Origin: Nitrososphaerales archaeon
GTDB lineage: Archaea > Thermoproteota > Nitrososphaeria > Nitrososphaerales > CADDZS01
Direction: 5' to 3'
DNA length: 27,198 nt
Assembly: GCA_030043455.1 (NCBI GenBank)
Contig: JASHXQ010000185.1
Span: forward strand, 1-27,198
The first letter of the stretch is position 1. Every line of letters starts with the position of its first letter. Made by a program: the position numbers and the translations under genes. Positions 6,565 to 21,476 of this stretch are shown piece by piece. Below the pieces are notes generated by a model. The model saw nothing but the letters and a program-made list of their open reading frames with translations. It searched no databases and was not told the origin of the DNA.

Positions 6565-9339
6565 TCATTCTTTGCTGACAAAATTCCCGGTTTCCATGAA
6601 TTTTGCAGCTTGCTCCTTCAGGCGCTGGATGGCTACTTCCCTGTCAGGATGAGTTACGAGTGCGATCTTGGCGACGTCCCAGAAATTCTTGGCCGACACG
6701 ATTTTGAGACCCTGCTTCTCAAAGAAGGCTCGATCCTCTGCGCTCACTCCGGAAAAGTTGGATTCCGGTATGATGATCGTGTCCACTCCATCAGTGTTCA
6801 AGGCGGCAACAAACTTGCCCATACCCTTGAAGTCGAGACCGCCCACCTGCACGAGCTCACCCTTCGGGGTCACACCCCCGGTGATCACCACGTTAGGCAG
6901 TACTTCCTCCCTGGCCGCAACGGAGTACTGGGCAAGAGTGATCGCAGCTCCGGCGCTCGGCCCCTGGATCACCTGCGAATCCAGACCCTTGGCGAAGGTG
7001 ATAAAATCGAGGAAGAATTCGTAGTTGCGCATCAACCAGTCGCACTGCTCGTTGAGGAAGATCCTCGCGTGCTCGGCACTTGCCCTAACGGATTTGGCGA
7101 TTTCACTGCCGATGACAGGCGCCTTTCCTCTTCGCCCGAAGGGATTGCACACGCACTCTATCACCGCGACCGTACCTTCAGAAGCCATCCCACCACTGCC
7201 GCTGCTCGCGAGAGCTGCAAGACCATAGACCTTGCCCACGGTCGGCACTGGATTGGGGCCACGCAGAGCAGAAGCGATCTTCTGGATTTCCTCCACAGAC
7301 TCGTCTCTCAGCGCGGCTACCGCAGCCTTAAAGTGCCCTATGGTGAGCTTGTACGATTCAGGTGTAACCTGCTTCAGGCTGTCGTAATTGTAATTCTGCT
7401 TTTCTTCCGTTACAGCGGCTGCAAGACCCATATTGGCCTTCACTCGCGTCAGATCTTCCTCGTAGATCTTCCGGAGCTTGTTCAATTGTGTACCATTGTC
7501 TGAAGGTACATGCGAGATCTTGTATGCCGCGTTGAGCTCCTTGAGACGGAGCTCGATAGCATCACTGATTACTCGTTCGATCTTTGCAGGAGTAAACGTC
7601 CGTTTCCCGAAGAGCTCAAGAATCTTCTCCTCCGTGACAGTAGAATCTAGGAAGGATCTGCATTTGTTGAGATGTACCCTGATTATCTCCAGCCGCTCGG
7701 TGTCGTTCCTTGGGGGTGGTACCTCGACTATCCTGTCAAAACGTCCGGCTCGCAGAAAGGCTTCGTCCACGAGCTGGAGCTTGTTGGTCGTACCGATGAC
7801 GACCACTCCTTCCAAAGGCTTCAGACCGCCCATCTCTGAGAGGAGTGTAGTAACGGCCCCGAGACTCCCGCCCAGTTCCCTCTTTAAAGTTAGGGCGTCC
7901 AGCTCATCTATGATGATGATAGACGGGGCATTCTTTCTTGCCTCGTCAAAAATATCGATGATAATCTTCTCGGTCTGGCCGTGGTAGGGCTTTACAATTT
8001 GGGCACCGCGGATCATATACATCGTCGCCTGTAACTCCCCTCCGATCGCCTGCACCAGCCAGGTTTTACCAGTTCCGGGATGACCATGCAGGAGGATGCC
8101 TCTGACAGGGGTAGCCCCTGCTCGTCTCGCCATCTCGGGATTGAGCGACACTTCCATATCCTTGAGCAGATTTTCCTTGATTCCGGACAGTCCACCGACA
8201 TCGTCCAGCGTGATCTTGGGTTTGATCCTCGTGACAATGTGCCGCATCTCGTCACTACGCTTGTCTTCGTTGTACTCCTTCAGCCGGCTAATGTCCCGGA
8301 AGTCTTCGAGAGTAATATTGAGCATCGGAGTACTTTCATCCTTGCCGAGAGCGCTGGAGAACTTTTTGAGGTATGAGGAGCGGACGTGCTTTGTCTTATT
8401 TTCCATGACGATCTGGAAGGCGTTCGAAATGTCCGCGGGTGTAACCGTGCCGTGCCCTAAAGCTCTGACCTTGGCTTCGATTGTGTGAAGAACGCTGTTG
8501 GGGTCCAGTTCAATTTTGTACTTTTCCAGATTCATTCTCGTGATCTCGACGAGCATGGGCCGATCGATTTCAGAGTCAAGGTCGATCGTTCCCGAGCTGC
8601 CTCTGCGTCTCACGGCCTCAATAACGGAACCGAACTCGTTCGTCGCCATAATGAGGATGCACCGTCTGTCCTGGTACACCATCTCGTTGATCTTCTCGAG
8701 CAGAGTGGTCTGCACCCCACGGAAGGCCTGTACTCCACTGTCAGGTGCGCCTGTGGAATCTCCCTGTTCCCTGGCGAGCGTCTGGGCCTCGTCGATAAAC
8801 AGAATGGTCGGCCGCTTGAAAGCCTCGTCGAACACTTGCGCGATTTTTTTCTCGGACTCGCCCAGCCACTTGTCGAAGATCTTGTGGGGAGAGACCTGCT
8901 GCGCATACACTGGAATATCTTTCTCCGATCCCTTCGCGTAAGCTTCCACCATTACAGAGTGCACGAGCGAAGTCTTGCCGGTGCCCGAGGATCCTTTTAC
9001 GATAAAGACCTGCGGGGGAGCGGTGGGACAGATACTCCGGAAAGTTTCGTCCCGTACTACCCAATATTGGACGGCAGAGAGTATCTCATCTTTCACTTCA
9101 GCATACCCCACGAAATTTGCGGCGAGTGTCGCATACGGGGCAACCGTAGCGTGAGCGTCGTTCAGCTGCTGTCGGATTAACTTCCTAGAAGGCTTTTTCG
9201 CCTTGTTAGTGGACTCCAGGTACCATTTCCGGTACTCTGCGTCCGAGGCCATTAAGAGCGGATGGTACAACGCCCTGAGAACTTTGGAGTGCTTCCACCA
9301 GTTGTCATCGTCCGCGTCTCTTGAAGGAATTACGCTCAT
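6565..9339 (-). CDS. Double-AAA ATPase with C-terminal Lon (S16) protease domain
   Basis: A 924-residue ATP-driven protease of unusual build. After a helical N-terminal region (about 1-100), AAA module 1 has Walker A GSSGTGKT (116-123), Walker B ILFIDE (179-184) and a pore-like KWLGESEK. AAA module 2 is Cdc48/PAN-like: DDVGGL, Walker A GHPGTGKT (419-426), Walker B IIIIDE (474-479) and the arginine-finger stretch RAGRFDR (530-536). A C-terminal S16 domain (about 693-895) has the catalytic Ser in GPSAGA (S795) and the expected Lys in GKFVAA (K842). There is no Lon substrate-binding N-domain and no LonB membrane insert. The ATG at 9339 is preferred, with GGAG 12 bases upstream and the previous stop 16 bases away. 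A TTG at 9390 would overlap the upstream gene. It is the second gene of a minus operon. Confidence 0.9.
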   Translation of the reverse strand: MSVIPSRDADDDNWWKHSKVLRALYHPLLMASDAEYRKWYLESTNKAKKPSRKLIRQQLNDAHATVAPYATLAANFVGYAEVKDEILSAVQYWVVRDETFRSICPTAPPQVFIVKGSSGTGKTSLVHSVMVEAYAKGSEKDIPVYAQQVSPHKIFDKWLGESEKKIAQVFDEAFKRPTILFIDEAQTLAREQGDSTGAPDSGVQAFRGVQTTLLEKINEMVYQDRRCILIMATNEFGSVIEAVRRRGSSGTIDLDSEIDRPMLVEITRMNLEKYKIELDPNSVLHTIEAKVRALGHGTVTPADISNAFQIVMENKTKHVRSSYLKKFSSALGKDESTPMLNITLEDFRDISRLKEYNEDKRSDEMRHIVTRIKPKITLDDVGGLSGIKENLLKDMEVSLNPEMARRAGATPVRGILLHGHPGTGKTWLVQAIGGELQATMYMIRGAQIVKPYHGQTEKIIIDIFDEARKNAPSIIIIDELDALTLKRELGGSLGAVTTLLSEMGGLKPLEGVVVIGTTNKLQLVDEAFLRAGRFDRIVEVPPPRNDTERLEIIRVHLNKCRSFLDSTVTEEKILELFGKRTFTPAKIERVISDAIELRLKELNAAYKISHVPSDNGTQLNKLRKIYEEDLTRVKANMGLAAAVTEEKQNYNYDSLKQVTPESYKLTIGHFKAAVAALRDESVEEIQKIASALRGPNPVPTVGKVYGLAALASSGSGGMASEGTVAVIECVCNPFGRRGKAPVIGSEIAKSVRASAEHARIFLNEQCDWLMRNYEFFLDFITFAKGLDSQVIQGPSAGAAITLAQYSVAAREEVLPNVVITGGVTPKGELVQVGGLDFKGMGKFVAALNTDGVDTIIIPESNFSGVSAEDRAFFEKQGLKIVSAKNFWDVAKIALVTHPDREVAIQRLKEQAAKFMETGNFVSKE

Positions 9340-9355
9340 CTCTAGAAGACTCTCC

Positions 9356-10141
9356 TTAGAGGCCCTGCTGCCTACGGGATCTGAAGCCAAAGAAGGACTT
9401 GATGATCAAAAAGCCTGCGAGGTACGTTCCCAGAATAAGCCCCACCACCAGTATGCCGACTACGACCATTCCGATCAAGGACATGAAGAACAGCCCGGTG
9501 TAGAGGAGCTTGTGGCTGCGCTTTACCCCGATAATGATCAATGAAGCGGAAAAGATCGCAAACATGGCGAGGATGTCCGTAGCACCCAGAGTGATCCCGC
9601 CAAGACTTATGCCTGTAAAACCGAAAAGAGGATTCCAACCGGATGACTGCGAAACTGGTTGAGGAAGGACATCAATCGAAAGGATCAAAAGCAGATTTCC
9701 TGTCCCCGTAATGTTTTTCGTCCATGTCGAAGCAGGAGTTCCCACCTCACTGAGGCCAGCGGAATTGACGCCTATGGCGGAGATGTTGAGCACCAGTGAA
9801 TAGTTTGCAATCTGAGCGGGGGTGAACAACAGGTCATTCTTGGTGCCGGAAGTGTACAGACCCGTATCATATTGTCCACCAGAGAGCGAAAGGATCGTGA
9901 CGTTCGAAGTCTGGGGAGTCAGCACCCTCAGGGTCATGCCAAAAGTGAGGTTGATGTCGATCGATTGGTAAGGAGGTACGGACTGGGAAGGGGATGGCAC
10001 GTACGTACCGGGAGTTAACGCATACGCTCTAAAACTCGAAGTCGAAAGAGAGGAGAGAACGAATAACATCCCCAAGAATGCTGAGGCGAGTAGAAACATG
10101 AGATTGCGTTTTCTTTTTTGAGAAATCGCACTTGCTAACAA
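9356..10141 (-). CDS. Membrane protein with exported N-glycosylatable domain, upstream of Lon-AAA gene
   Basis: A 261-residue protein of no recognised family. A basic start (QKRKR) precedes a hydrophobic segment near residues 14-34 (signal anchor or signal peptide). A Ser/Thr-rich domain of about 130 residues follows and holds five Asn-x-Ser/Thr sequons (NLT, NVT, NYS, NIS, NIT), as expected of an exported archaeal domain. Two or three membrane helices lie in the last 90 residues, and the tail is basic (FRSRRQQGL). The TTG start at 10141 fits a strong TATA-like box at 10172-10182, about ten bases of leader being expected. Its stop is 16 bases from the protease ATG, so the two are almost certainly co-transcribed. 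It could act as membrane anchor or regulator of the protease; this is inference. Confidence 0.75.
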   Translation of the reverse strand: MLASAISQKRKRNLMFLLASAFLGMLFVLSSLSTSSFRAYALTPGTYVPSPSQSVPPYQSIDINLTFGMTLRVLTPQTSNVTILSLSGGQYDTGLYTSGTKNDLLFTPAQIANYSLVLNISAIGVNSAGLSEVGTPASTWTKNITGTGNLLLILSIDVLPQPVSQSSGWNPLFGFTGISLGGITLGATDILAMFAIFSASLIIIGVKRSHKLLYTGLFFMSLIGMVVVGILVVGLILGTYLAGFLIIKSFFGFRSRRQQGL

Positions 10142-10289: not shown

Positions 10290-10961
10290 ATGTTTGTTAT
10301 GGCGATCGACCTCTTCACCGCTCTTGACCTCGCAAGCGCCTTCGCTGTGATAATTCCCGGAGTGGTTTTGCTCTCGCTGATCCGTGGAATCAAGGTCGCC
10401 TCGCTCCGGAACATGACAATCCTCCTATCTGCTTTTTCCATTCTGCACGGCTTTTACCATCTTTCCTATCTGACCTCATACTACGACTATGCTCCCTTTT
10501 TGGATCTCGCGACCGCGCTTATTCTGGTGGCACTGGGTATGTACTATACCAATCGCATAGTAGCTTTCTCGCTTTTCTTGATCGCCCTGCCTGATGCCGC
10601 GACCTATCTTGTCCCTGTCGCACTCGCTATCGCATTCATCCTTTTTGCAAGACTCGCGATCGTCTCGAAGAGTATTCGTACTTTGCAGGCGCAGCTGTCT
10701 ATCTTCATCTTGATCTGGATCGCAGCGGAGCTCCTCAGATCTCTATTATTGCTGAACGTGTTCTCGGCTTCACTTGCTCTGCAGACGTTCGGGCTGGAGG
10801 TTCACACAGTGGCTATGATCGCGTTCGGTGTCTTCATGCTCTCCAGATACTACAGTGCAGCGACGAATCCCCACAACGAATCCCCGGATTGGCTTGCAAA
10901 GGACACCACACCAGCTCCCCCGAGATCCAAGAGGGGTCCGGAGGAAGGAAGCGACCGTTAG
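10290..10961 (+). CDS. Multi-pass (about seven TM) membrane protein, possible sensor
   Basis: A 223-residue protein dominated by hydrophobic helices separated by very short loops. About six or seven segments are seen between residues 8 and 190, with an aromatic, His-containing stretch (HGFYHLSYLTSYYDY) after the second. The last 35 residues are polar and Pro/Lys-rich, probably cytoplasmic. No enzyme motif and no known transporter signature is seen. Size and layout resemble the stand-alone or N-terminal 7TM sensory modules common in archaeal signalling proteins, but this is only resemblance. ATG at 10290 is used; an ATG three codons later is possible. The next gene starts three bases after its stop, which implies joint expression with the NitrOD5-like protein. 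Confidence 0.7.
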   Translation: MFVMAIDLFTALDLASAFAVIIPGVVLLSLIRGIKVASLRNMTILLSAFSILHGFYHLSYLTSYYDYAPFLDLATALILVALGMYYTNRIVAFSLFLIALPDAATYLVPVALAIAFILFARLAIVSKSIRTLQAQLSIFILIWIAAELLRSLLLLNVFSASLALQTFGLEVHTVAMIAFGVFMLSRYYSAATNPHNESPDWLAKDTTPAPPRSKRGPEEGSDR

Positions 10962-11348: not shown

Positions 11349-11680
11349 TTGACTGAGGAAGAGCGAAAGCTAGCGTCATCATGTTTATCGACGTGGTGGG
11401 TTACACCGCCCTGACTCAGTCCAATGAGAGTGCAGCATTTGAAATTTTTGAAAAGCACAATCAGTTACTACGTCCATCCTCCCCAAAATATCGAGGGAGA
11501 GAGATCAAGACAATTGGTGACTCTTTCTGGTATAATTTGATAGCGCGCTGGATGCCGTTAGGTGTGCCGTGGAGATTGTAAACCGACACCACTACGTCAT
11601 ACCCGGCTTCCATCAAATCCAAAGGCATAGACATTATCCGGCAATTATCTGCGAGTATTGGCATTCAGAATTTGAGCTAG
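11349..11680 (+). pseudogene. Decayed, truncated class III adenylate/guanylate cyclase
   Basis: The recognisable core is FIDVVGYTALTQSNESAAF, then EIFEKHNQLLR and EIKTIGDSF, with both metal-binding Asp residues. It aligns with the first 80 residues of the intact cyclase at 21590. Lesions are visible. One base is missing near 11374, so the TTG start at 11349 (reading TEEERKLA) is out of frame with the core. A second base is missing at 11527/11528, after which the frame reads FLV, then TAA at 11533-11535 where GAA (Glu) is expected, then FDSALDAVRCAVEI. A third shift is needed to reach IRQLSASIGIQ, which resembles the later LRIGVHAGD strand. Homology ends where the convergent methyltransferase gene begins. 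The Asn-Arg catalytic half is gone. A TATA-like AATTTATC remains near 11307-11314. Confidence 0.82.
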
Positions 11681-12438
11681 GATGACGATTTTCGCAAGAT
11701 TGCTATGTACAGGGGCCTCTCATTAGGTTCTGCATCGAAGAACCGTTCGATCGTCCATCCGGTGTCACGTACAATCTCCTTCATCTCGTCCTTCGAGACA
11801 AGAAGATAGTAGAACCATTTTCCCACGAAAGTTCTATATCGCGCCCTAATTTTGATTTGACCACCAAGTCTGCCCCGCATCCTGTTTCTTCTCTGATAAG
11901 CCAAGTGATCCAGGTCGTCCGTTTTGTAGGGATCCACACTTTGAAAGATCATAACGGCATCCTCGGAAGTCATGACGAAAAGTTTCCTCAGTAGGCGTCT
12001 TGCAAGTTTGGGACTGGAAAACAAGCCAAAATTATTTCCGAACATAACGATCGTATCGAAGGAAGATGGCGGGAAGTCAATCTTGTGAAAGTCGAGAATT
12101 CTGGTCTTTCGCAATCCGCGAAGTCTTGAAACCTTGAGAGCGAGGCGAGAGTTATCGATCCCCAGAACCTCGAGTTTTTTTTCATTCTGGAGGTGTATAG
12201 CTACCCTTCCAGCACCACAACCGACATCCAGTACTTTGCCGTTGGCGAATTCCAACGACTCTTGCTCCATACGATGCCATTCTTCATATGGAGAAAAGTA
12301 AAACTTGGGTCCGGAAGAGGTATTGATGTAGCCATCGTCTCTCTCTATTATCTCATACGCGGGTTTCTTCTGGTAGTAATCCCAGATTTCGTGGCCAAAG
12401 GCGTCTCGATCTTTAGCGTTTGTCAGAGTTGTGAGCAC
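11677..12438 (-). CDS. Class I SAM-dependent methyltransferase
   Basis: A 253-residue Rossmann-fold methyltransferase. Motif I is VLDVGCGAGRVAIHL, motif II ends in GIDNSRLAL, and motif IV/post-II is FDTIVMFGNNFGLF. The C-terminal part (RARYRTFVGKWFYYLL and the VRDTGWTIERFF strand) is typical of generic small-molecule methyltransferases of the Methyltransf_25/11 type. The acceptor substrate is unknown. The start is GTG at 12438, supported by a TATA-like box at 12469-12476. Its stop overlaps the last bases of the decayed cyclase on the other strand. Confidence 0.87.
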   Translation of the reverse strand: MLTTLTNAKDRDAFGHEIWDYYQKKPAYEIIERDDGYINTSSGPKFYFSPYEEWHRMEQESLEFANGKVLDVGCGAGRVAIHLQNEKKLEVLGIDNSRLALKVSRLRGLRKTRILDFHKIDFPPSSFDTIVMFGNNFGLFSSPKLARRLLRKLFVMTSEDAVMIFQSVDPYKTDDLDHLAYQRRNRMRGRLGGQIKIRARYRTFVGKWFYYLLVSKDEMKEIVRDTGWTIERFFDAEPNERPLYIAILRKSSS

Positions 12439-12468
12439 TCTTGGAATTCAGAAACAGTATCGGAGGAT

Positions 12469-12476
12469 GATTTAAG
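12469..12476 (-). promoter_or_regulatory. Putative TATA box for the methyltransferase gene
   Basis: CTTAAATC on the minus strand, centred about 34 bases before the GTG at 12438, giving a leader of about eight bases. Confidence 0.4.
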
Positions 12477-12568
12477 CTTCATTAAGTACGAGTTCGACCA
12501 CGCGATAATTGTTTGAATATTAGGCGGAGGCGAACTGGAGATGCACATGAGGAGAACACAGATTAGCT

Positions 12569-12976
12569 TTGTCAGATTGCATCTTTTGTGACATTGTTTC
12601 CGGAAGGGAGAAATGCTACCCCATCTACGAGGATGCTTCGACCAAAGCTTTCCTAACCCTGCGTCCAATCAGCGAGGGCCACACCCTTGTTATTCCAAAG
12701 AAGCATTTCGAGATGATCTTTGACATTCCATCGGAAGAATTGTCTCATCTGATGGAAGTTACAAAGCTTCTCTGCCTGCACTATCGACAGAAGCTGGGCA
12801 TGGACAGTTTGAACCTCGTTATCTCCAACGGTCCAGCTACTCACCAAAAGATAATGCATCTTCACCTGCATATTGTCCCGCGGAAAGTAAATGACGGCTT
12901 GCAAATTTGGTCAAGACGAGAGCTAGCGAGTGATTCTGATTTAGAAAGGGTGAGAAGAAAGTTTTCAATTCAATGA
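12569..12976 (+). CDS. HIT family nucleotide hydrolase/transferase
   Basis: A 135-residue histidine-triad protein, expected to cleave nucleoside phosphoramidates or dinucleoside polyphosphates in the cytoplasm. The triad is HLHLHIVP (H97, H99, H101; H99 is the expected nucleophile). The N-terminal SDCIFCDIVSGRE carries the two Cys (C4, C7) that often bind zinc in this family, and GHTLVIPKKH is the usual ribose/phosphate loop. The start is TTG directly before SDCIFC, the family's normal N-terminus. A GAGGAG-like sequence near 12549-12554 is a possible ribosome site. T-tracts follow the stop (12997-13003 and 13020-13026) and may end transcription. Confidence 0.93.
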   Translation: MSDCIFCDIVSGREKCYPIYEDASTKAFLTLRPISEGHTLVIPKKHFEMIFDIPSEELSHLMEVTKLLCLHYRQKLGMDSLNLVISNGPATHQKIMHLHLHIVPRKVNDGLQIWSRRELASDSDLERVRRKFSIQ

Positions 12977-13055
12977 TCGTCCTTACTATTTCCCACTTTT
13001 TTCTGAATTCTGACAGAAGCTTTTTTGAGTATTAAAGCTCCCGAGTACTGAGCCC

Positions 13056-15338
13056 TTGTTAGTCGGAGAGTCCTTGGAGCGCAAAGAGGGTCCCAGGCTC
13101 GTAACTGGAAAAGGTACTTTCACGATAGATGTCAAAATCCCTGACGAACTTTACGTGGCCTTTCTCCGGAGTCCGTATGCTCATGCCCGGATAAAATCTG
13201 CGAAAGCGAGCAAAAGCTCCGATGCTGGCTTCTCCATTTTTTTCGATGATGACTTTGGAAAGGATCTCCCGATGCTTTCCAGCTGGCCCGGGACTCCCGA
13301 ACCTCCCTTTCCTCTACTGGCGAGAGGCGCAGTTCTTTACTACGGTCAACTCGTTGCAGCCGCGGTTGCAGCGTCCCCAGCTCTCGCCGAGGATGCCGTG
13401 GAATCCGTAGACGTGGAATACGAGGCCCTTCCTGTCATTCTTGAGAGCGAAGATGCCCTAAAACCAGACGCTGTTCTGGTCCACGACGAGTTAAGGTCAA
13501 ATCTAATCGGATCCTGGAAAAGCGAGAACGGCTCCTTTGAAGAGGCTGCCTCCCGAGCTGACGTTTTAATCGAGGAAAAATTCTCGGCACAGCGGGTAAC
13601 CGGGCAGGCAATCGAACCGAGAGGCGCGGTGGCGAGCTGGGACAAATCCAGCGAGAAGCTTACCATCTGGCTGACTACACAGTGCCCGCACACCGACCGG
13701 AAAATAATCTCGGAGTGTACTAACCTCCCGGAAGATCGCATCCAGGTGCTCGCTTTGGATGTGGGCGGCGGATTTGGAATAAATTCCCACAGTTACCCGG
13801 AGCAAATTCTGACCTGTCTCCTCTCGATCAAACTGGGGAGGCCAATCAAGTGGACAGAAGACAGAAGGGAACATGTGGCAGGTGCGATCCACAGCGGGGA
13901 TTGCACGCAATGGATCACGATTGCGGCTTCCAAGGACGGAAGAATTCTAGGGATGAAGGAAAAAATTCTCCAGAATGCCGGAGCCTACCTGCAGACACGC
14001 CACGTAGTTTCGACCTTTGTTACCGCCCTGCTCGTGCCGGGCCCTTATTCCATTCCCTCTTTCTCCATAGAAGTCTCGGCCGTCTTCAGCAACAAGGGGC
14101 CGGTGGGAACATATCGGGCCTTCGGGATGACCCAGGCTACTTTTGCCCGCGAGCGCATGATGGACATCCTAGCGAGGCGCTTGGGCATAGATCCCGCTGA
14201 AGTACGTTTCAGGAATTTGATCGACCCGGCAGCTTTCCCCTTCATCAATCCTGCTGGTCTCCCGTACGACAGCGGCAACTATCGACTCACTTTTTCGAGG
14301 GCCCTCGAGCTTGCGGGGTATCAAGAATTTAGGCGGAGGACTCAATCTCAAAAACCCGGAAAAAGGTCCGGAATAGGGATCGGTTTCTATCTGGAGATGG
14401 GTGGGGTCGGGGCTCTGCACATGCTCCCCACCAAGGGATCAACTTACGCCCCCAATGAGTCAGCCCGGGTCAGGCTTTACGAAGATGGGCGAGTTGTGGT
14501 ATTTACCGGGGTAGCTCCCACCGGACAGGGCCTCGAGACCTCCCTCGCGCAGATTGCCGCAGGGACTTTAGGCGTACCGCTCAACCGTGTCGACATCCTT
14601 CACGGCGATACTGAAACCTGTCCCTACAGCGGTGATGGGACTATCGCGAGCCGGAGTGCGAACATGGCAGGTAATGCAGTATACCTTGCTGCGAGTCGAT
14701 TGAAACGGACTCTGGACAAGCGGGTGTGGATGAAGCTCGGTCCGGACAGGGATTCTACGATATCGCTCCAGGACTCAAAGATCATTGCAAAAAGCAAGAG
14801 CCTTACTTTAACCGAGCTTTTCGATGGCAGCCCGTACATCGAAGAGACCAAGTTCTACGTCCCCAGAACAACTTCTGGGACAACCGCGTACGGGATCCAG
14901 ATCGCAAACGTGGAAATTGATGAAGAAACCGGCAAAGTCAGGGTAACAAAACTGACAACCGTTCATGACTGCGGGCGAATGTTGAATCCAGCCATCGTCG
15001 AGGGCATGACTCAGGGCGGGTGCGCGCAGGGGATTTCTGCTGCCCTTCTAGAAGAAGTAGCTTACGGAGATGACGGTTCAATCACAACCAGCACCTTCGG
15101 GGATTACTTGATCCCGACTGCGATGGAAATGCCCGAACTGGCTTCGGATCACACCATAACACTGTCTCCTACAAACCCTCTAGGGGTCAAGGGAGGCGGT
15201 GAAGGGGGAATCATTGGAGCGCCAGCCGCGATCGCGAACGCAGTGTGCGACGCCTACTCTTCGGACGGGCTGTCCCTTTCCAGAATTGTGACAAGACCGG
15301 AGAATCTATTTTTCAAGATCCGAAATCTTGAGAGTTAG
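13056..15338 (+). CDS. Molybdenum hydroxylase large subunit (xanthine dehydrogenase/CoxL family)
   Basis: A 760-residue molybdopterin-cytosine-dinucleotide-binding subunit of the xanthine oxidase/CO dehydrogenase family. Landmarks in order: RKEGPRLVTGKGTF at the N-terminus, VGGGFG, GTYRAFGMTQATFARERMMD (residues about 350-370), PTGQGLETSLAQIAAGTLGVP, GDGTIASRSANMAGNAV, and the catalytic Glu near residue 716 in GVKGGGEGG, followed by APAAIANAVCDA. The active-site loop is TYRAFGM. It is neither AYxCSFR (form I CO dehydrogenase) nor AYRGAGR (form II), so CO is unlikely as substrate. The TTG start at 13056 fits the family N-terminus. No FAD or 2Fe-2S subunit gene is adjacent, so partner subunits must be encoded elsewhere. 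Substrate unknown. Confidence 0.92.
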   Translation: MLVGESLERKEGPRLVTGKGTFTIDVKIPDELYVAFLRSPYAHARIKSAKASKSSDAGFSIFFDDDFGKDLPMLSSWPGTPEPPFPLLARGAVLYYGQLVAAAVAASPALAEDAVESVDVEYEALPVILESEDALKPDAVLVHDELRSNLIGSWKSENGSFEEAASRADVLIEEKFSAQRVTGQAIEPRGAVASWDKSSEKLTIWLTTQCPHTDRKIISECTNLPEDRIQVLALDVGGGFGINSHSYPEQILTCLLSIKLGRPIKWTEDRREHVAGAIHSGDCTQWITIAASKDGRILGMKEKILQNAGAYLQTRHVVSTFVTALLVPGPYSIPSFSIEVSAVFSNKGPVGTYRAFGMTQATFARERMMDILARRLGIDPAEVRFRNLIDPAAFPFINPAGLPYDSGNYRLTFSRALELAGYQEFRRRTQSQKPGKRSGIGIGFYLEMGGVGALHMLPTKGSTYAPNESARVRLYEDGRVVVFTGVAPTGQGLETSLAQIAAGTLGVPLNRVDILHGDTETCPYSGDGTIASRSANMAGNAVYLAASRLKRTLDKRVWMKLGPDRDSTISLQDSKIIAKSKSLTLTELFDGSPYIEETKFYVPRTTSGTTAYGIQIANVEIDEETGKVRVTKLTTVHDCGRMLNPAIVEGMTQGGCAQGISAALLEEVAYGDDGSITTSTFGDYLIPTAMEMPELASDHTITLSPTNPLGVKGGGEGGIIGAPAAIANAVCDAYSSDGLSLSRIVTRPENLFFKIRNLES

Positions 15339-15361
15339 TCCAAGCCAAGTAAACACGAACT

Positions 15362-15369
15362 CATATATC
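15362..15369 (+). promoter_or_regulatory. Putative TATA box
   Basis: CATATATC between the molybdenum hydroxylase stop and the TTG at 15422. The expected transcript start is near 15391, giving a leader of about 30 bases. This suggests the cyclase-like gene has its own promoter. Confidence 0.35.
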
Positions 15370-15421
15370 AGATTTGGAAAAAGGACCGCACATCAGTTTT
15401 CCTTTCAATTGGTAACGAAAC

Positions 15422-16540
15422 TTGGCTTACTTCGATAGCAACGGTGAATACCTCGCGGAGATCATTGACCATTTAATCACAGTTCCAGTTTTCACCGGTT
15501 CCTCTCTAGCTAACAGGCCTGTAGTCTTGGAGCTTTACCGGGCCGCGAGAGCAAAGTCTGGTGGGCCTCTGGTATTCGAAGCTGCCGAAAAAATCGTATC
15601 TGCTGCGAAGTCGCTTGATGAGAAGGAGAAAAAATCCATAATCTTGACCACGGGGTTCATCATACCTCCTTGGATTCAGCCTGAAACAGACGGGCCAGTG
15701 GGATCGGTCTCTCTTGCACGATCTTTAGCTCTGGCTTTCGATCTCGTCCCCGTGATTATCACAGAGCAGAGTTCCGTGGAAAAACAAGCTAGACTCGCCG
15801 AGCAGGGTGGCTTCAGAGTCACAAGCTACGAAAGGGCGGCGGAGGTTCCGAGAAGTCTGGCGATCGAAGGCTTCACTCTGGACCGATCAGCGGCGAAAAA
15901 GGAGTCCGAAGAATTATTGCAGAGAATCTCCCCCTGCGCGATCATCTCTATCGAAAAGGCCTCCCCCAACAGGAAGGGAATCTTTCATAGTGGCATCGGG
16001 GTGGATGTAAGCTCATTATCCGCAAAGGTAGATGCCCTAATTGAATCGGCTCGGGAAATTGGAATCCCCACGATCGGCATCGGCGACGCCGGGAATGAAA
16101 TCGGCATGGGCATCATCGAAGACACGGTGAGGGAGATTCTTCCCACAGGCAAGGATTGCGGCTGCCCCTGCCATTCAGGTGTTGCCTCGGCGATCTCTAC
16201 AGATTCTCTCATCGTCGCCGGCACCTCGAACTGGGGCTGCTCCGCGATTGAAGCGATGCTGTCTTATTACTTCAAGGCTCCCGAATTGCTCCATGATGGC
16301 GCGACGGAAGAGATTCTCATCAGGGCGGCGGCGTCTGCCGGCTTTATCGATCCTGCTTCGGGGTTTGCCGATGCGGGGGTAGACGCGATTCCCGGAAAGA
16401 TTCACGGCTCCATGATCGAGGTCCTCAATTTTGTGACCAAATCGCGCTACACCGAATCACTCTACATCAAGAAATACCGGGAATACACGAAGGACAAGGA
16501 GAAAATCGCCCGACTAATCAAAAACGCGGAAGAGAGTTAG
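15422..16540 (+). CDS. D-glutamate cyclase-like protein (DUF4392/GLUCM C-terminal domain)
   Basis: A 372-residue protein matching the DUF4392 domain found at the C-terminus of D-glutamate cyclase, which turns D-glutamate into 5-oxo-D-proline. Marker stretches are ILTTGFIIPPWIQPETDGPVG near residue 80, the IEKASPNRKGIFHSGIGVD block, GIGDAGNEIGMG, and CGCPCHSGVASAIS with TDSLIVAGTSNWG. The Cys-Gly-Cys-Pro-Cys cluster is notable. The start is TTG at 15422. It overlaps by three bases with the stop of the convergent maleate-isomerase-like gene, so their ends are shared. Activity is inferred from the domain only. Confidence 0.83.
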   Translation: MAYFDSNGEYLAEIIDHLITVPVFTGSSLANRPVVLELYRAARAKSGGPLVFEAAEKIVSAAKSLDEKEKKSIILTTGFIIPPWIQPETDGPVGSVSLARSLALAFDLVPVIITEQSSVEKQARLAEQGGFRVTSYERAAEVPRSLAIEGFTLDRSAAKKESEELLQRISPCAIISIEKASPNRKGIFHSGIGVDVSSLSAKVDALIESAREIGIPTIGIGDAGNEIGMGIIEDTVREILPTGKDCGCPCHSGVASAISTDSLIVAGTSNWGCSAIEAMLSYYFKAPELLHDGATEEILIRAAASAGFIDPASGFADAGVDAIPGKIHGSMIEVLNFVTKSRYTESLYIKKYREYTKDKEKIARLIKNAEES

Positions 16541-17280
16541 CGAAAGAGTTCGCCTAGTGGAATAGCTTCCTTTCCGTTCCACCTCATAGCCTCAAGACAC
16601 TTCCAGAGTGTTGCAGAATTACTGCTGACGACCGGCTTTCCCAGAGATTTCTCTATGGAACCGAGGATCGGGAAGGTTTTGAGATCAGTGCAACTGAGAA
16701 AAATTCCTTCAGCGTTGCCAGAGTCGACCTTCATCGCCAGTTTGAAAGCTGTTTCCGGAGGTTCTTTGTGCAGAGCTTCTCCTTCGAGATGACCCAGACC
16801 GGAAATTCTCGTTACTTCGATGCCATTTTCTTCCAAGAATTTCTTTTCCGCCATATTTACTTCCTCGATGTACGGTGTGCCCACCGCTACTTTCGAGATA
16901 TGGAGTTTGTTAAGGGCGTCGATCACCGCTGAAGCAGTAGTCACTGCCGGAACTCGTATGCGGGACTCCATCCTCTTGGCCAAGCTCTTTTCCCATGGTA
17001 GTCCTTCGATCAGGCTTCCGGTGGTGCAGGCATAGGCAATCACGTTAACTCTAGCCGTGGCGAGGAGGTCACAGGCAGCTTCTGTATCTTCCGACATCTG
17101 AATTAGGTGTTCTTTGTCACCCCTGGGAAGAAACAGCCGGGTAGCGTGGACCGAGACTCCGGTAGGTGCATAGGCGTTGAATTCCGGTTCGATTGTGACG
17201 TTGAGAGAGGGGACGATTAGGCCGATCCGGAAAGCATTGCTGTAATTTGGGGTTTGTCCCTCGTAGGTAGCCTGTTTCAT
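16537..17280 (-). CDS. Maleate isomerase / Asp-Glu racemase superfamily protein
   Basis: A 247-residue protein of the two-cysteine Asp/Glu racemase superfamily, closest by motif to maleate cis-trans isomerase and arylmalonate decarboxylase. The first Cys lies in IAYACTTGSL (C85) and the second in FLSCTDLKTF (C197). The opening RIGLIVPSLNVTIEPEF contains the Asn-x-Thr-x-Glu-Pro-Glu-Phe signature of maleate isomerases. It starts with ATG, 33 bases after the UbiD gene on the same strand, so the two are likely co-transcribed. That pairing fits aromatic or dicarboxylic acid breakdown. The exact substrate (maleate or a malonate) is open. Confidence 0.85.
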   Translation of the reverse strand: MKQATYEGQTPNYSNAFRIGLIVPSLNVTIEPEFNAYAPTGVSVHATRLFLPRGDKEHLIQMSEDTEAACDLLATARVNVIAYACTTGSLIEGLPWEKSLAKRMESRIRVPAVTTASAVIDALNKLHISKVAVGTPYIEEVNMAEKKFLEENGIEVTRISGLGHLEGEALHKEPPETAFKLAMKVDSGNAEGIFLSCTDLKTFPILGSIEKSLGKPVVSSNSATLWKCLEAMRWNGKEAIPLGELFR

Positions 17281-17313
17281 GTTTACTTCGAGTTAGATTT
17301 TCTACAATCGTTT

Positions 17314-18648
17314 CTAGCTTCGACGAACGTATTCGTCCAGCTGGATCTTCTCCTGCCCGGGGATATATTTTCGGATCTTCTCCTCCTTGGCCTCCAGCGG
17401 GGCTGTAGCATCAATCCCGATCTTGGACTGGTGAAGATGATGGAGATCCCTCGGAAAGCCCTGCGCCTCTGGAACTATGAAAATTCCCTTGTCCGGACGA
17501 CTCCTCGTCACCATCGCCCACCACACGTCGTCTAGGTTGTAAACATCGACGTCTTCGTCCACCACGATGCAATACTTCAGCCAGGAATATGCCCCGAAGG
17601 CGCACATTGCGACGTTCTTCGCCTCGCCCTCGGATCTCTTCTTTATTCCGATTACTCCACTAAGCAGAGAGGGTGTCACAGAAATTCCCGTGACTACGTA
17701 ACCTGAAGCAGTTAGGGCGCGATAGACCTTCGCCTCACGGGACAATGCAAGCAGATGGATATCTTCCTTCGTCCCCGCCTGGATGGTGTGATAGATCGCT
17801 CCGTTCCGGTAGGTAATCGCCTTTAGGTGAAAGACGTGGTTTTTCGTTTCGGGTATGTAAAATTGAAAGACATCACCGTAGGGTCCTTCTTCCTCGCGGA
17901 CATTCGCGAGAACCTCTCCTTCGAGAACGATTTCTGCGCTCGCAGGGACAGAGATGTCGACAGTCTCACATTTCACCAGTTCTACTGGCTCGCCGGCGAG
18001 AGCCCCGGCCAATTCATAGTGATCGACTCCATAGGGCAAAGTAGTGGAAGCTGCAATCATCTCCAGCGGATGGGCACCGATGACCACCGCTACCTCGAGG
18101 TTCCTGCCTAACTTTTCCGCCTTACCATGGATAACTCCGAGATGCTGGGGCGCCATCATCCTCACGCCGAATTTCTGCGAACCCTTGAGCTGCATTCGAT
18201 TAAAGGAAACGTTGCTGTATCCTGTTTCGGGATCTCGCGCAGTTACCATTCCAGCGGTGATGAAGGGTGCGACATCTCCTTCTGCATGGGTGACGATCGG
18301 CAGGATTTCCGAACGAGCCTCATCTCCGAGGAGAATATTTTCCTTGCACGGCCCGGAGCTTACGAGCTGGGGTTTGATCGGGCGATCAGCACGCGACACG
18401 TACTCCTCCACCGTTTTGCCCTCCGGGGTGTCGAGAGCCAGCGCGAGCATCTTCCTTGAAACGGTGAGGTTTGCGACCACCGGAAAAGTGCTGCCCCGTA
18501 CGCTGTGAAATTCGATCGCCTTGTTTTCCTTCTCGGCAGCGCGCACCACCGCGGACAGTTCAAATTTGGGATCGACATCGCGATCGACGTGTAGCAAAAG
18601 ATTGTTGGTTTCGAGTTGTTTCAGGTAAGATCGGAGATCGCGGACCAA
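17314..18648 (-). CDS. UbiD family prenyl-FMN-dependent decarboxylase
   Basis: A 444-residue UbiD-family enzyme, which uses prenylated FMN to (de)carboxylate aromatic or alpha,beta-unsaturated acids. Signatures are YSNVSFNRMQL (cofactor and metal binding), FGVRMMAPQHLG with the likely catalytic Arg, VVIGAHPLEMIAAS, the acidic REEEGPYGDVF loop (catalytic Glu pair), and KIGIDATAP near the end. Length is slightly under the usual 450-500. The TTG start at 18648 agrees with the TATA-like box at 18674-18683. No UbiX-type prenyltransferase gene, needed to make the cofactor, is in the window. The substrate is unknown; the following isomerase-like gene hints at organic-acid catabolism. Confidence 0.93.
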   Translation of the reverse strand: MVRDLRSYLKQLETNNLLLHVDRDVDPKFELSAVVRAAEKENKAIEFHSVRGSTFPVVANLTVSRKMLALALDTPEGKTVEEYVSRADRPIKPQLVSSGPCKENILLGDEARSEILPIVTHAEGDVAPFITAGMVTARDPETGYSNVSFNRMQLKGSQKFGVRMMAPQHLGVIHGKAEKLGRNLEVAVVIGAHPLEMIAASTTLPYGVDHYELAGALAGEPVELVKCETVDISVPASAEIVLEGEVLANVREEEGPYGDVFQFYIPETKNHVFHLKAITYRNGAIYHTIQAGTKEDIHLLALSREAKVYRALTASGYVVTGISVTPSLLSGVIGIKKRSEGEAKNVAMCAFGAYSWLKYCIVVDEDVDVYNLDDVWWAMVTRSRPDKGIFIVPEAQGFPRDLHHLHQSKIGIDATAPLEAKEEKIRKYIPGQEKIQLDEYVRRS

Positions 18649-18673
18649 ACTGCCTTGTTTCCTCTCCAGTTTG

Positions 18674-18683
18674 TTTTCTAAAG
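18674..18683 (-). promoter_or_regulatory. Putative TATA box for the UbiD operon
   Basis: CTTTAGAAAA on the minus strand, centred about 31 bases before the TTG at 18648. An almost leaderless transcript is expected. Confidence 0.45.
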
Positions 18684-18794
18684 TCTTCTGGGGAAAATCC
18701 AGACAGGAAGCTTGAAAGTGAGCGAGGTGCAGTCCCCAAAATTTACAAGCCTTCTTTTGACAAGGCCTTGAACTACGAGAGCGCGCCGTCTGGA

Positions 18795-19397
18795 ATGAGT
18801 ACTAATCTACCGAAGAAATCCAGGTGGCGATATCTACGGGTGCTGACCTACTTCATCCCCATCTTCATTATAATCGGGGGCTACGGGGTAATCGTGGTCG
18901 TGACCCAGGAAAGCTCTCCCTTCACCATCGTGACCGGGACGAGCATGCAGCCCACCATACTTCCGGGGTCGATCGCACTGATTGCAAAAGTCCCCTTCGA
19001 TCAGCTGAAAATCGGTGACGTGATTGTCCACACCACGCAGGACTCCCTGCTTGCGCCGTGCGACAGCTCCCCTGCGCAGACGTTGACGGGTGAGGTCTCT
19101 AATCCCTGCTTTGTAATCCACCGGATTGTACAGATCAGAACCGACGCTGGGGGCCAGAGGATAGTCACGACCAAAGGGGACGACAACTCGATTTCCATCG
19201 ATGGGATCGACACCGGGATAAATGCGTCGATGTATCTCGGAAAGGTGATCGTGCAGTTTCCGCTTCTCGGCTACCTGACCGAGCAACCGTACAATGAGAT
19301 CATCGCGTTATTCATCTTCATCGCGCTGATCGCCGAGCTTTTGTTTGAGAGAAGACAGTCTCCGCCTAAGCAACCTGTCGAAGGCGCCACCTCCTAG
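18795..19397 (+). CDS. Signal peptidase I (S26B, archaeal/SEC11 type)
   Basis: A 200-residue membrane protease that removes signal peptides from exported proteins. A TM helix lies at about 17-37 and another at about 168-185. The catalytic Ser is in TGTSMQPTI (S50) and the general base is a His in FVIHRIV (H109), which replaces the bacterial Lys. The Asp pair in TTKGDDNS (D129/D130) completes the archaeal/eukaryotic type. The ATG at 18795 lies just before the basic stretch and TM1. An in-frame TTG at 18768 is possible, since a TATA-like AAATTTAC at 18738-18745 would start the transcript near there. The frame stays open far upstream, but there it is antisense to the UbiD gene. Confidence 0.93.
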   Translation: MSTNLPKKSRWRYLRVLTYFIPIFIIIGGYGVIVVVTQESSPFTIVTGTSMQPTILPGSIALIAKVPFDQLKIGDVIVHTTQDSLLAPCDSSPAQTLTGEVSNPCFVIHRIVQIRTDAGGQRIVTTKGDDNSISIDGIDTGINASMYLGKVIVQFPLLGYLTEQPYNEIIALFIFIALIAELLFERRQSPPKQPVEGATS

Positions 19398-19455
19398 AAA
19401 GGACTACGCCTACACTCGTAACTACGCGACTAATCGAAGACTGCGGTGAACCTGT

Positions 19456-20466
19456 CTACGCCGAGGTCTTTCCCAAGATCTCTGAGAGCAGAACGGGGTT
19501 GGCGTTCCCGCCGCTGATCACGGAGACCACCTTACCTCGGCCGAAGGGCAGCTTCTTTTGCAACACAGCCGCAACGGGCGCAGCTCCAGAGGGTTCGATC
19601 ATGATGTGGAGTTCGTTCAGTATGAAACGCATCGCCTGCCGGATCTCATCGTCACTCACGAGTACCATCTGGTCGACCAGGTCGAGCATCAAGCGCAAGT
19701 TCAATGGCTCCGTTGCAGAAGCCGCCATCCCGTCGGCGATGGTGTTCGTGGTCGTCGAGACTATTTTTCGCTCGGTGTACGATCGGTAAACTGCTGGCGC
19801 TCCCTCTGCGCAGACTCCGATGATTTTCGTCTGATGCAGCTTTTTCCCTTTGATCGCTGCGGCGATACCGCTTATCAAGCCCCCGCCACCAATTGGAACG
19901 AGAACGTAATCCGCGTCCGGAAGATCTTCGGTGATCTCAAGACCGATGGTGCCCTGCCCGGAAATTACGTCGGGTTCGCCAAAGGGATGGACCAACACCG
20001 CCCCTTCTTTTTCCACGATTTCTCGGGCCTGCGTGGACAGATCCAGCACGTTCTTCCCGTGTTTGATCAACTTCACATTGGGATATTCGCCGATCGCCCG
20101 GACCTTTGCCTCATTGGCCGTCTCGGGCACTATGATTGTCGCCTCCATGCCGACCATATAGGAGACGTATGCCACCGCGAGCCCGTGATTACCGGCGGAA
20201 AAAGTCACGAGAGCCTTCTTTGAGCCTGACTCGGCCAGTCGGAGAATTTTGTTTAGGGCGCCCCGGATCTTGAACACCCGGATGGGCTGGTAACACTCCA
20301 GCTTTAGGTATGAATCTATGCCTGATCTTAGGGAGAGGGTTCTGGAGGGATAAAGCGGCGTTCGCGTGTAATACTTCGAAGCTCGCTTTCTCGCATCCTC
20401 GATAGACTGGAGGTTGATCTTCCTGACAGTTTCTTTTTGTTCCGGGGTCAGCTCAAATTCAGACAT
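19456..20466 (-). CDS. Threonine/serine dehydratase-like PLP enzyme
   Basis: A PLP fold-type II enzyme of 336 residues from the ATG at 20466. The PLP lysine is in VFKIRGA (K66); the residue before Phe-Lys is Val where Ser is common. Other marks are SAGNHGLAVAY (substrate loop), the phosphate-binding IGGGGL and the late SGGNANP. There is no C-terminal ACT domain, so it is of the short, catabolic type. A GTG at 20478 would add four residues and overlap the upstream stop as GTGA, so translational coupling is likely. Together with the ornithine-cyclodeaminase-like gene it resembles the BhcB/BhcD (hydroxyaspartate) or EutB/EutC (hydroxyectoine) pairs, in which the dehydratase product is an imine. 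The substrate may therefore be a beta-hydroxy amino acid other than threonine. Confidence 0.9.
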   Translation of the reverse strand: MSEFELTPEQKETVRKINLQSIEDARKRASKYYTRTPLYPSRTLSLRSGIDSYLKLECYQPIRVFKIRGALNKILRLAESGSKKALVTFSAGNHGLAVAYVSYMVGMEATIIVPETANEAKVRAIGEYPNVKLIKHGKNVLDLSTQAREIVEKEGAVLVHPFGEPDVISGQGTIGLEITEDLPDADYVLVPIGGGGLISGIAAAIKGKKLHQTKIIGVCAEGAPAVYRSYTERKIVSTTTNTIADGMAASATEPLNLRLMLDLVDQMVLVSDDEIRQAMRFILNELHIMIEPSGAAPVAAVLQKKLPFGRGKVVSVISGGNANPVLLSEILGKTSA

Positions 20467-20474
20467 TTGATTTT

Positions 20475-21476
20475 TCACTCACTTCTCTCTGCCACAAAAT
20501 TAATCCAACTGCCAGCTTTCTTGGAAACGGCTTTTTGATAGATGCGCTGGGCAGAGGCTAGATCTTCGATCGCGAGACCAGCAGACTTGAAAATCGTGAT
20601 TTCGTCGTCGCCCGTCCTGCCTTTCACCGCTCCCACGAGAATCTCTCCGATTTCTCCCTTGATATGGGAGTCGCCTATGAGACCCTCACTCCTCGGGACC
20701 CGGAAATCCTCCGCCTCTTCGATCGCGGACTGTCGCCGGTCTACGAAGAAGGCGCTTTTCACCACGGCCTCTGAATCCAACTCCCGGAAAGGTGGTACTG
20801 AAGCTCCAACAGCGTTGATGTGAGCTCCCGGATCAATCCACGCCCCCTTCAAAATGGGTGCGGTCGCAGCAGTTACGGTACAGATGATTCCGGCACCTCT
20901 GACGGCTTCTTGCGCACTTTCGACAGCTTCGACATCGAGACCTGCGACTCCTTTGTTTCGCAGCGCTTTTGCATGTTCGAACTCTCTCGACCAGATCCTC
21001 ACTTCCCGGAGGGATTTCCTCACCAGAGGGATGGCTTCCAGGTGCATCTTGGCCTGGGTACCTGAACCCAGAATCGCGAGAATCCTGGCGTCCTTCCTCG
21101 CCAGAAGATCCGTCGCCACCGCGCTCACGGCGGCCGTGCGAATCGCTGTTACCGAACCGGCGTCGATGATCGCCTGCAAGTGACCGTGTTCAGTTTCAAA
21201 GAGCTGAATAGCTCCCTGGTGAGAGTCGAATTTAGTTCCGTGGTTTCCCGGAAAAACTGTGACGACCTTTATACCCACAGCTGGATGGTTTCCTCCCAGA
21301 TAGGCAGGCATCATACCTAGGATACCTTTCTTGTCCGGTTGCCGCAGTGCCTGTCTCTGCGGCAAGATCACTTCTCCCCTCGCAAGGGCGGCCAACGCCT
21401 CCCGCATGGTGGCAATGCATTCTCCCATCGAAAGGAGGCTCCTTACCTCGTCAGCACCGACGATCAACGTGTCCAT
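20475..21476 (-). CDS. Ornithine cyclodeaminase / mu-crystallin family NAD(P)-dependent enzyme
   Basis: A 333-residue member of the ornithine cyclodeaminase/alanine dehydrogenase/iminosuccinate reductase family. Seen are the substrate-binding Lys in VGIKVVTVFPGN, the segment DAGSVTAIRTAAVSAVATDLLA, the dinucleotide-binding loop ILGSGTQAKMH (GxGxxA) and INAVGASVPPFRELD, with an Asp near the active site. The ATG at 21476 gives the normal N-terminus. Its stop overlaps a possible start of the threonine-dehydratase-like gene, so both are one operon. The pairing makes imine reduction more likely than true ornithine cyclisation; this is inference. Confidence 0.9.
   Translation of the reverse strand: MDTLIVGADEVRSLLSMGECIATMREALAALARGEVILPQRQALRQPDKKGILGMMPAYLGGNHPAVGIKVVTVFPGNHGTKFDSHQGAIQLFETEHGHLQAIIDAGSVTAIRTAAVSAVATDLLARKDARILAILGSGTQAKMHLEAIPLVRKSLREVRIWSREFEHAKALRNKGVAGLDVEAVESAQEAVRGAGIICTVTAATAPILKGAWIDPGAHINAVGASVPPFRELDSEAVVKSAFFVDRRQSAIEEAEDFRVPRSEGLIGDSHIKGEIGEILVGAVKGRTGDDEITIFKSAGLAIEDLASAQRIYQKAVSKKAGSWINFVAERSE

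Follow-up and report, generated by a model that had tools for sequence, protein, structure and literature searches.

An archaeal AAA-AAA-Lon protease family encoded next to a membrane-protein gene

Gene organisation and domain layout

The window analysed here is a stretch of 27,198 nucleotides from a Nitrososphaerales archaeon (contig JASHXQ010000185.1), whose minus strand carries, at 9339-6565, a gene that codes for two AAA modules and a Lon-type (S16) protease domain in one chain and, directly upstream of it, the gene of a putative membrane protein, hereafter the partner; 16 base pairs separate the stop codon of the partner from the ATG of the protease. The minus-strand open reading frame (ORF) of the protease spans 6565-9390 and offers a TTG start at 9390 (941 residues) and an ATG at 9339 (924 residues), while the plus-strand reading of 6565-9339 meets several stops. 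The motif AAGGAG (9357-9352), resembling a ribosome-binding site, lies 12 nucleotides 5' of the ATG and shares bases with the stop codon of the gene before it. The protease gene has the following features:

6565..9339, minus strand: AAA-AAA-Lon protease gene, 924 residues from the ATG at 9339, 941 from the TTG at 9390 (ORF, Pfam)
9109..9339, minus strand: N-terminal region preceding module 1, mostly helical in the model (alignments, structure model, fused proteins)
8446..9108, minus strand: AAA module 1, a divergent classical AAA (Pfam, structure model)
8968..8994, minus strand: Walker A of module 1, GSSGTGKTS (motif table)
8782..8805, minus strand: Walker B of module 1, ILFIDEAQ (motif table)
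7576..8202, minus strand: AAA module 2, PAN/Cdc48/FtsH-like (Pfam, model scores, fold match)
8062..8085, minus strand: Walker A of module 2, GHPGTGKT (motif table)
7903..7920, minus strand: Walker B of module 2, IIIIDE (motif table)
7732..7752, minus strand: arginine-finger motif RAGRFDR of module 2 (motif table)
6658..7179, minus strand: S16 (Lon_C) protease domain (Pfam, model scores, fold match)
6955..6957, minus strand: catalytic Ser, 812 in the 941 numbering and 795 in the 924 numbering (in 52/52 rows)
6814..6816, minus strand: invariant Lys, proposed to be catalytic, 859 in the 941 numbering and 842 in the 924 numbering (alignment, model)

Pfam places two AAA stretches (E 2.1e-55) and then Lon_C (residues 738-911, E 7.1e-12) on the chain, and the motif search finds both Walker A/B pairs, GPSAG, DDVGGL and RAGRFDR. 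The original prediction of a single 924-residue chain with two Walker A/B pairs and a C-terminal S16 domain is therefore borne out, on the minus strand, as are the DDVGGL start and the RAGRFDR arginine finger that it assigned to module 2 and the domain order AAA-AAA-Lon_C that it proposed to look for. In module 1, visual inspection places KWLGESEK at the pore-loop position and RRR at that of the arginine finger. Relatives that also contain AAA and Lon_C argue against a chance join in the window protease; about 50 of them share 44-100% identity with it, most over nearly the full length, two more are found at 28-31%, and the close relatives that bear names are Nitrososphaerales or Thaumarchaeota metagenome-assembled genomes.

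Catalytic residues and ATPase motifs

The residues expected of an ATP-dependent protease were compared in a motif table of 53 rows, 14 from profile A1 and 39 from the loci (P0016 and L002 being the same protein); the row of L022 is truncated ahead of module 1 and that of L005 ahead of S16, and 52 rows (51 different proteins) include S16. The Walker pairs of both modules are intact in most of the 53 rows and in the window protein itself, as a double-ring unfoldase would need.

In the S16 domain, the Ser and the Lys of the GMGK/GSGK motif (K859 in the 941 numbering) are each kept in 52/52 rows, with 46 residues between them in 46 rows and 48 in the other six. The published Lon spacing is 42 residues between the catalytic Ser and Lys (PMC9569914), so that the invariant Lys stands four or six residues beyond the LonA/LonB spacing. 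The place separated from the Ser by exactly 42 residues is occupied by Arg in 35 of the 52 rows, by Lys in 10, by Pro in six and by Glu in one, and the window protein is among the 10 with Lys (K855 in the 941 numbering). The original prediction of a matching Lys thus holds to the extent that K855 occupies the 42-residue place, but that place is not conserved and the Lys shared by all rows is K859. In the structure model, Ser795 starts a helix (794-809), Lys842 is the second residue of another (841-848) and Lys838 lies in the loop that precedes the latter; from alignment and model we infer that Lys842 (924 numbering) is the catalytic Lys.

The adjacent membrane-protein gene

The partner gene of the window comprises:

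9356..10141, minus strand: partner membrane-protein gene, 261 residues from a TTG, 247 from the ATG at 10099 (ORF, hydropathy)
9665..9967, minus strand: ectodomain, predicted beta sandwich (structure model)
9365..9583, minus strand: C-terminal helices 187-207 and 210-259 of 261, two hydrophobic segments (hydropathy, model)

Its product has a hydrophobic stretch at the N-terminus, two hydrophobic helices at the C-terminus and a predicted beta sandwich in between, and finds no match in Pfam, NCBIfam or PADLOC. The original prediction missed this neighbour. A membrane-protein gene adjoins the protease in 41/41 loci with a readable flank (the window, L001-L005, L018-L021, L023-L051, L060 and L061), which cover 32 of the 43 protease genomes; a second copy in G004 (L022), cut at the contig end, was left out of this count. 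The partner lies upstream in the same direction in 34 loci and head-to-head in seven (L036-L042; larger views L052-L054). Some of the loci are close kin (L040, L041 and L042 are 96-99% alike), the partner of L031 is cut at the contig start, and the partner ORF of L044 is probably over-extended upstream. In the 21 loci with larger flanks the protease is the sole gene cluster common to all; partner groups occupy the next places (5, 5, 4 and 4 loci), together with two other genes found in four loci each, namely a 2-hydroxyacid dehydrogenase beside clade 2 and an ORF of 327-368 residues.

Partners usually combine a hydrophobic N-terminal segment with an ectodomain and, at the C-terminus, two or three hydrophobic helices. 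By BLAST at 1e-10 the partners fall into five groups; profile comparison relates group A, that of the window's clade, to group B over the ectodomain (E 2.7e-6), and three control sets of membrane neighbours give E 0.07 or worse.

In part of the family the transmembrane part of the partner is joined to the protease. Among 162 proteins with a GPSAG-like motif, some of them partial (14 without the motif were left out), seven carry at least two hydrophobic segments well N-terminal of module 1, and in each of these residues 1-125 match group-C partners in their transmembrane part, with best scores of 64.7, 58.9, 52.8, 52.8, 47.0, 38.5 and 34.3 bits (E 1e-16 to 5e-6). As controls, 42 further membrane ORFs from the loci score no higher than 23.5 bits in the same comparison, and 200 rounds of shuffling, which breaks up hydrophobic segments, no higher than 29.3 bits. 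In these fused proteins, the transmembrane part of the partner precedes the region that matches the protease N-terminal region, and the five of the seven with known taxon names are all Asgard. An undescribed family of membrane-bound proteases is suggested by a membrane-protein gene that adjoins the protease and that, in some Asgard archaea, is partly fused with it.

The clade-1 partner profile matches 6/201 genomes of the order, namely G001-G005, all with the protease, and G058. In the latter (L099:7118-8121), all that is left of the protease is approximately 60 aligned residues at its start and 40 at its end; the partner match next to them contains a stop, and a different contig holds a short S16 piece interrupted by stops. 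From these remnants, protease and partner seem to be decaying together. The four clade-2 genomes have their own partner group, invisible to this profile.

These observations bear on the simplest alternative, in which the protease is a soluble, cytoplasmic, Lon-like quality-control enzyme and the membrane protein its substrate, its inhibitor or a mere neighbour. Adjacency in 41/41 loci in two arrangements, the transmembrane part fused to the protease in seven proteins and the apparent joint decay in one genome all speak against it, and we consider it unlikely.

Distribution and variation of the family

Profile A1 (14 members) matches 9/201 genomes of the order at E <= 1e-100 and 43/398 sampled genomes of the phylum, to which genome sampling was confined, at E <= 1e-90; given such strict thresholds, both counts are minimum values. 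Profile A2 adds, among the matches listed, relatives named Methanomethylicaceae, Verstraetearchaeota, Nezhaarchaeota, Bathyarchaeia, Hecatellales, Thermoprotei, Sulfolobales and Desulfurococcaceae, one record labelled Methylomirabilota, and the Asgard lineages Odinarchaeia, Hodarchaeota and Promethearchaeota; the names come from 120 of 7840 profile matches, most of which are nameless. The source names of the relatives are generic (AAA family ATPase, ATP-binding protein, SpoVK/Ycf46/Vps4 family, hypothetical). A description of the family was not found in the open-licence literature, judged by titles and abstracts, with subscription papers and preprints elsewhere outside the scope. The AAA-AAA-Lon chain belongs to a widespread, uncharacterised archaeal family.

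In the clade-2 loci L018-L021 module 1 is degenerate, with GWGKK in Walker A and IEQ, IDQ or IDN in Walker B, and in module 1 of P0054 Walker B reads MDS and Walker A is longer by one residue; module 1 can therefore lose its ATPase motifs, as clade 2 illustrates, while the architecture stays.

In the same clade, a BSP peptidase domain (PF04450, HEXXH) follows S16 in one chain at L018:7537-10899, L019:1414-4776 and L020:7007-10369 and is encoded by a separate, overlapping gene at L021:7644-8294; Pfam makes the call on L018 and L021, with L019 and L020 homologous along the whole length of 1120 residues. By sequence, clade 2 would thus combine two different peptidases on one AAA machine.

The BSP domain, fused or adjacent, and the degenerate first module of clade 2, together with a partner that varies while the protease is conserved, would suit a dedicated signalling protease whose ectodomain senses envelope stress and which degrades one or a few regulators rather than substrates in general. 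The broad distribution and the changing neighbourhoods, with no conserved regulator alongside, point the other way and make such a restricted role rather improbable.

The family was also compared with the distribution of archaeal LonB. The curated LonB cut-off is passed by 0/51 protease-bearing genomes and likewise by 0/398 phylum genomes, and by 3/14 named genomes used as a control, while a strong LonB-like match (E <= 1e-100) is present in 27/398 phylum genomes. The 43 protease genomes (E <= 1e-90) and these 27 do not overlap (0 observed against about 2.9 expected), which is weak evidence because the genomes are related. Separately, G476, G500 and G531 (loci L063, L064) contain the family together with a LonB-like protein, an open frame of 819-831 residues that scores 142-160 bits with TIGR00764, below the cut-off. 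A replacement of LonB is not claimed, since phylum genomes without the family also never pass the cut-off and these three genomes hold both.

Proposed mechanism

The protease and its partner are interpreted as a two-gene module that forms a membrane-tethered ATP-dependent protease, working like FtsH or LonB with the anchor on a separate subunit, and we assign this reading a probability of about three in four. Support comes, in sequence and model, from the domain order, the intact motifs, the adjacency of the partner, the transmembrane fusion and the invariant Ser and Lys. Membrane partner, fusions and domain order fit together and would correspond to the layout of a membrane AAA protease that has two rings and not one.

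Beyond this, we infer a hexamer, proteolysis, a physical complex of the two proteins, its orientation, its substrates and a role for the ectodomain. Specifically, six AAA-AAA-Lon chains would form stacked rings, in which the two AAA rings would pull and unfold the substrate and hand it on to the S16 chamber, in which the putative dyad Ser795/Lys842 (924 numbering) would cut it. The partner would anchor the machine to the membrane by its transmembrane helices, the order along the machine being membrane helices, N-terminal region, module 1, module 2 and S16 chamber, and its ectodomain would face outward and may recruit or sense substrates, a role with which the variation of the partner between groups fits. 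The module may serve as a quality-control or regulatory protease for membrane proteins, a counterpart of FtsH and archaeal LonB, and membrane or envelope proteins are a natural guess for its substrates.

Several observations weigh against this interpretation. Two loci (L043/L055, L045/L059) have a short partner reduced to the transmembrane part, with no ectodomain, and among the partner groups weak profile links join A to E (0.014), B to C (0.035) and C to E (0.047), and none joins D; position and layout are therefore conserved throughout, while a common descent of the five groups is not established. The transmembrane calls derive from hydropathy, and the ectodomain model covers the window's group. 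Judged by the motifs, two active rings are not universal, given the degenerate Walker A and B of module 1 in the four clade-2 loci and the alteration in P0054. The structure model is a monomer, and the p97/VAT matches of both modules jointly have a root-mean-square deviation (rmsd) of 15-18. The G058 remnant could be an assembly fault, and the anticorrelation with LonB is weak, three genomes holding both the family and a LonB-like match.

In a wider frame, the balance of the evidence tilts towards a third ancient class of ATP-dependent protease in TACK (Thaumarchaeota, Aigarchaeota, Crenarchaeota, Korarchaeota) and Asgard archaea, beside the 20S proteasome and LonB. This membrane-tethered machine would do the work of FtsH and pair a soluble AAA-AAA-Lon subunit with a membrane subunit of its own, whose external domain would sense or recruit. 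With 0/398 genomes past the LonB cut-off and 27 with a LonB-like match, the two-gene module is a testable candidate for membrane-protein degradation in part of the phylum's archaea. It also lets two anchor routes of AAA proteases be compared, namely a separate subunit and a fusion.

Surroundings of the module in the window

A further alternative is an anti-phage or mobile-element system, to which the match of the AAA stretches with IetA and other PADLOC AAA models would point. These matches concern the AAA parts alone, the partner has none, the window neighbours with Pfam matches are mostly metabolic genes, and the 25 viral contig loci recovered match the AAA part and never S16, the search patterns having lain in the AAA part; such a system is very improbable. 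A viral origin was likewise rejected on the AAA-only matches of these loci.

Divergent from the partner gene, the plus strand at 10290-10961 encodes a hydrophobic protein of 223 residues with no Pfam match and no match among the other ten loci compared. The stretch 11677-21476 is a metabolic run with a methyltransferase, a HIT protein, a molybdopterin-binding hydroxylase subunit, a D-glutamate cyclase-like protein, arylmalonate decarboxylase-like and UbiD-like decarboxylases, a pyridoxal phosphate enzyme and an ornithine cyclodeaminase-like protein, perhaps for the catabolism of an unusual acid or amino acid. At 21590-23536, plus strand, an adenylate/guanylate cyclase catalytic domain is followed by tetratricopeptide repeats, with a relative in L001. 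RNA families and tRNAs were not found in the window.

Comparison with known systems

Scored separately, module 1 reaches 56.4 bits with the CDC48 model, module 2 reaches 163.9 bits with PAN, 158.8 with CDC48 and 150.1 with FtsH, and the S16 part reaches 46.3 bits with sporulation LonB and 40.5 with archaeal LonB; these scores are far below the curated cut-offs and no such model therefore claims the protease. The same holds for TIGR00764 (LonB; 48.1 bits against a cut-off of 516.6) and TIGR01243 (Cdc48; 211.5 against 802.65). Among the 24 families of the Pfam search, the LON substrate-binding domain that marks LonA, CDC48_N and the M41 zinc metalloprotease domain that marks FtsH are all absent, and P0001 has no hydrophobic segment as a LonB-type anchor inside an AAA module, the putative anchor being adjacent or N-terminally fused instead. 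Going by its sequence, the protease fails the tested defining features of LonA, LonB, Cdc48 and FtsH. The S16 Ser and Lys following an AAA module and a fold match with MtaLonC, a Lon-like protease, place it in the Lon family (S16) in the broad sense.

The original prediction envisaged an unfoldase and protease in one polypeptide, possibly parallel to Cdc48 with the proteasome, and proposed a phylogeny of the modules. Both AAA pairs and S16 are indeed present, but in the tree that was made the modules branch outside Cdc48 D1/D2, so that a simple Cdc48-Lon fusion is not supported, and the partner had been overlooked. This quick tree has 54 rows, with no PAN, FtsH or Lon rows, flagged long branches and a Vps4 label that the analyst gave to three rows. 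In Foldseek searches, the best E-values belong to p97. The family shares with Cdc48/p97/VAT and the 20S proteasome the two tandem classical AAA modules, which here would likewise feed a protease; it differs in having an S16-type protease in cis and no Cdc48 N-domain found.

FtsH consists of one AAA module and a zinc metalloprotease domain, whereas the Pfam search finds no such protease domain in the window protein. The MtaLonC match has 16% identity and aligns only to model residues 379-919, so that module 1 has no counterpart in it; to our knowledge, no partner protein of MtaLonC has been reported.

Among published S16 proteins, the Lon classes A, B, C and BA are described as an ATPase domain with an AAA+ module followed by the protease domain (PMC9569914), and the architectures seen in the excerpt of a 2008 survey include LON-AAA-Lon_C, Sigma54-AAA-Lon_C, Mg_chelatase-Lon_C and others, with AAA-AAA-Lon_C not among them (PMC2605481). 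According to a 2015 review, archaea possess two ATP-dependent proteases (PMC4343526). Archaeal LonB (MEROPS S16), which is said to resemble FtsH probably in function (PMC4343526), is an archaeal chain with AAA and S16, like the present family, and is membrane-associated, as the latter would be. In LonB the anchor sits within the AAA module, the Ser is preceded by Asp, and 42 residues separate Ser from Lys (PMC9569914), whereas the present family has two AAA modules, a putative anchor that is carried by another protein or placed N-terminally, a Pro in front of the Ser in every listed row except one, and 46-48 residues between Ser and the invariant Lys. LonBA of Bacillus subtilis likewise lacks the LonA N-terminal region and is presumed to be membrane-bound via its N-terminus, and differs in its single AAA module and its occurrence in firmicutes (PMC9569914). 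By sequence, the AAA-AAA-Lon protein of TACK and Asgard archaea is best described as a variant among Lon/AAA proteases whose gene has a conserved membrane-protein gene as its neighbour.
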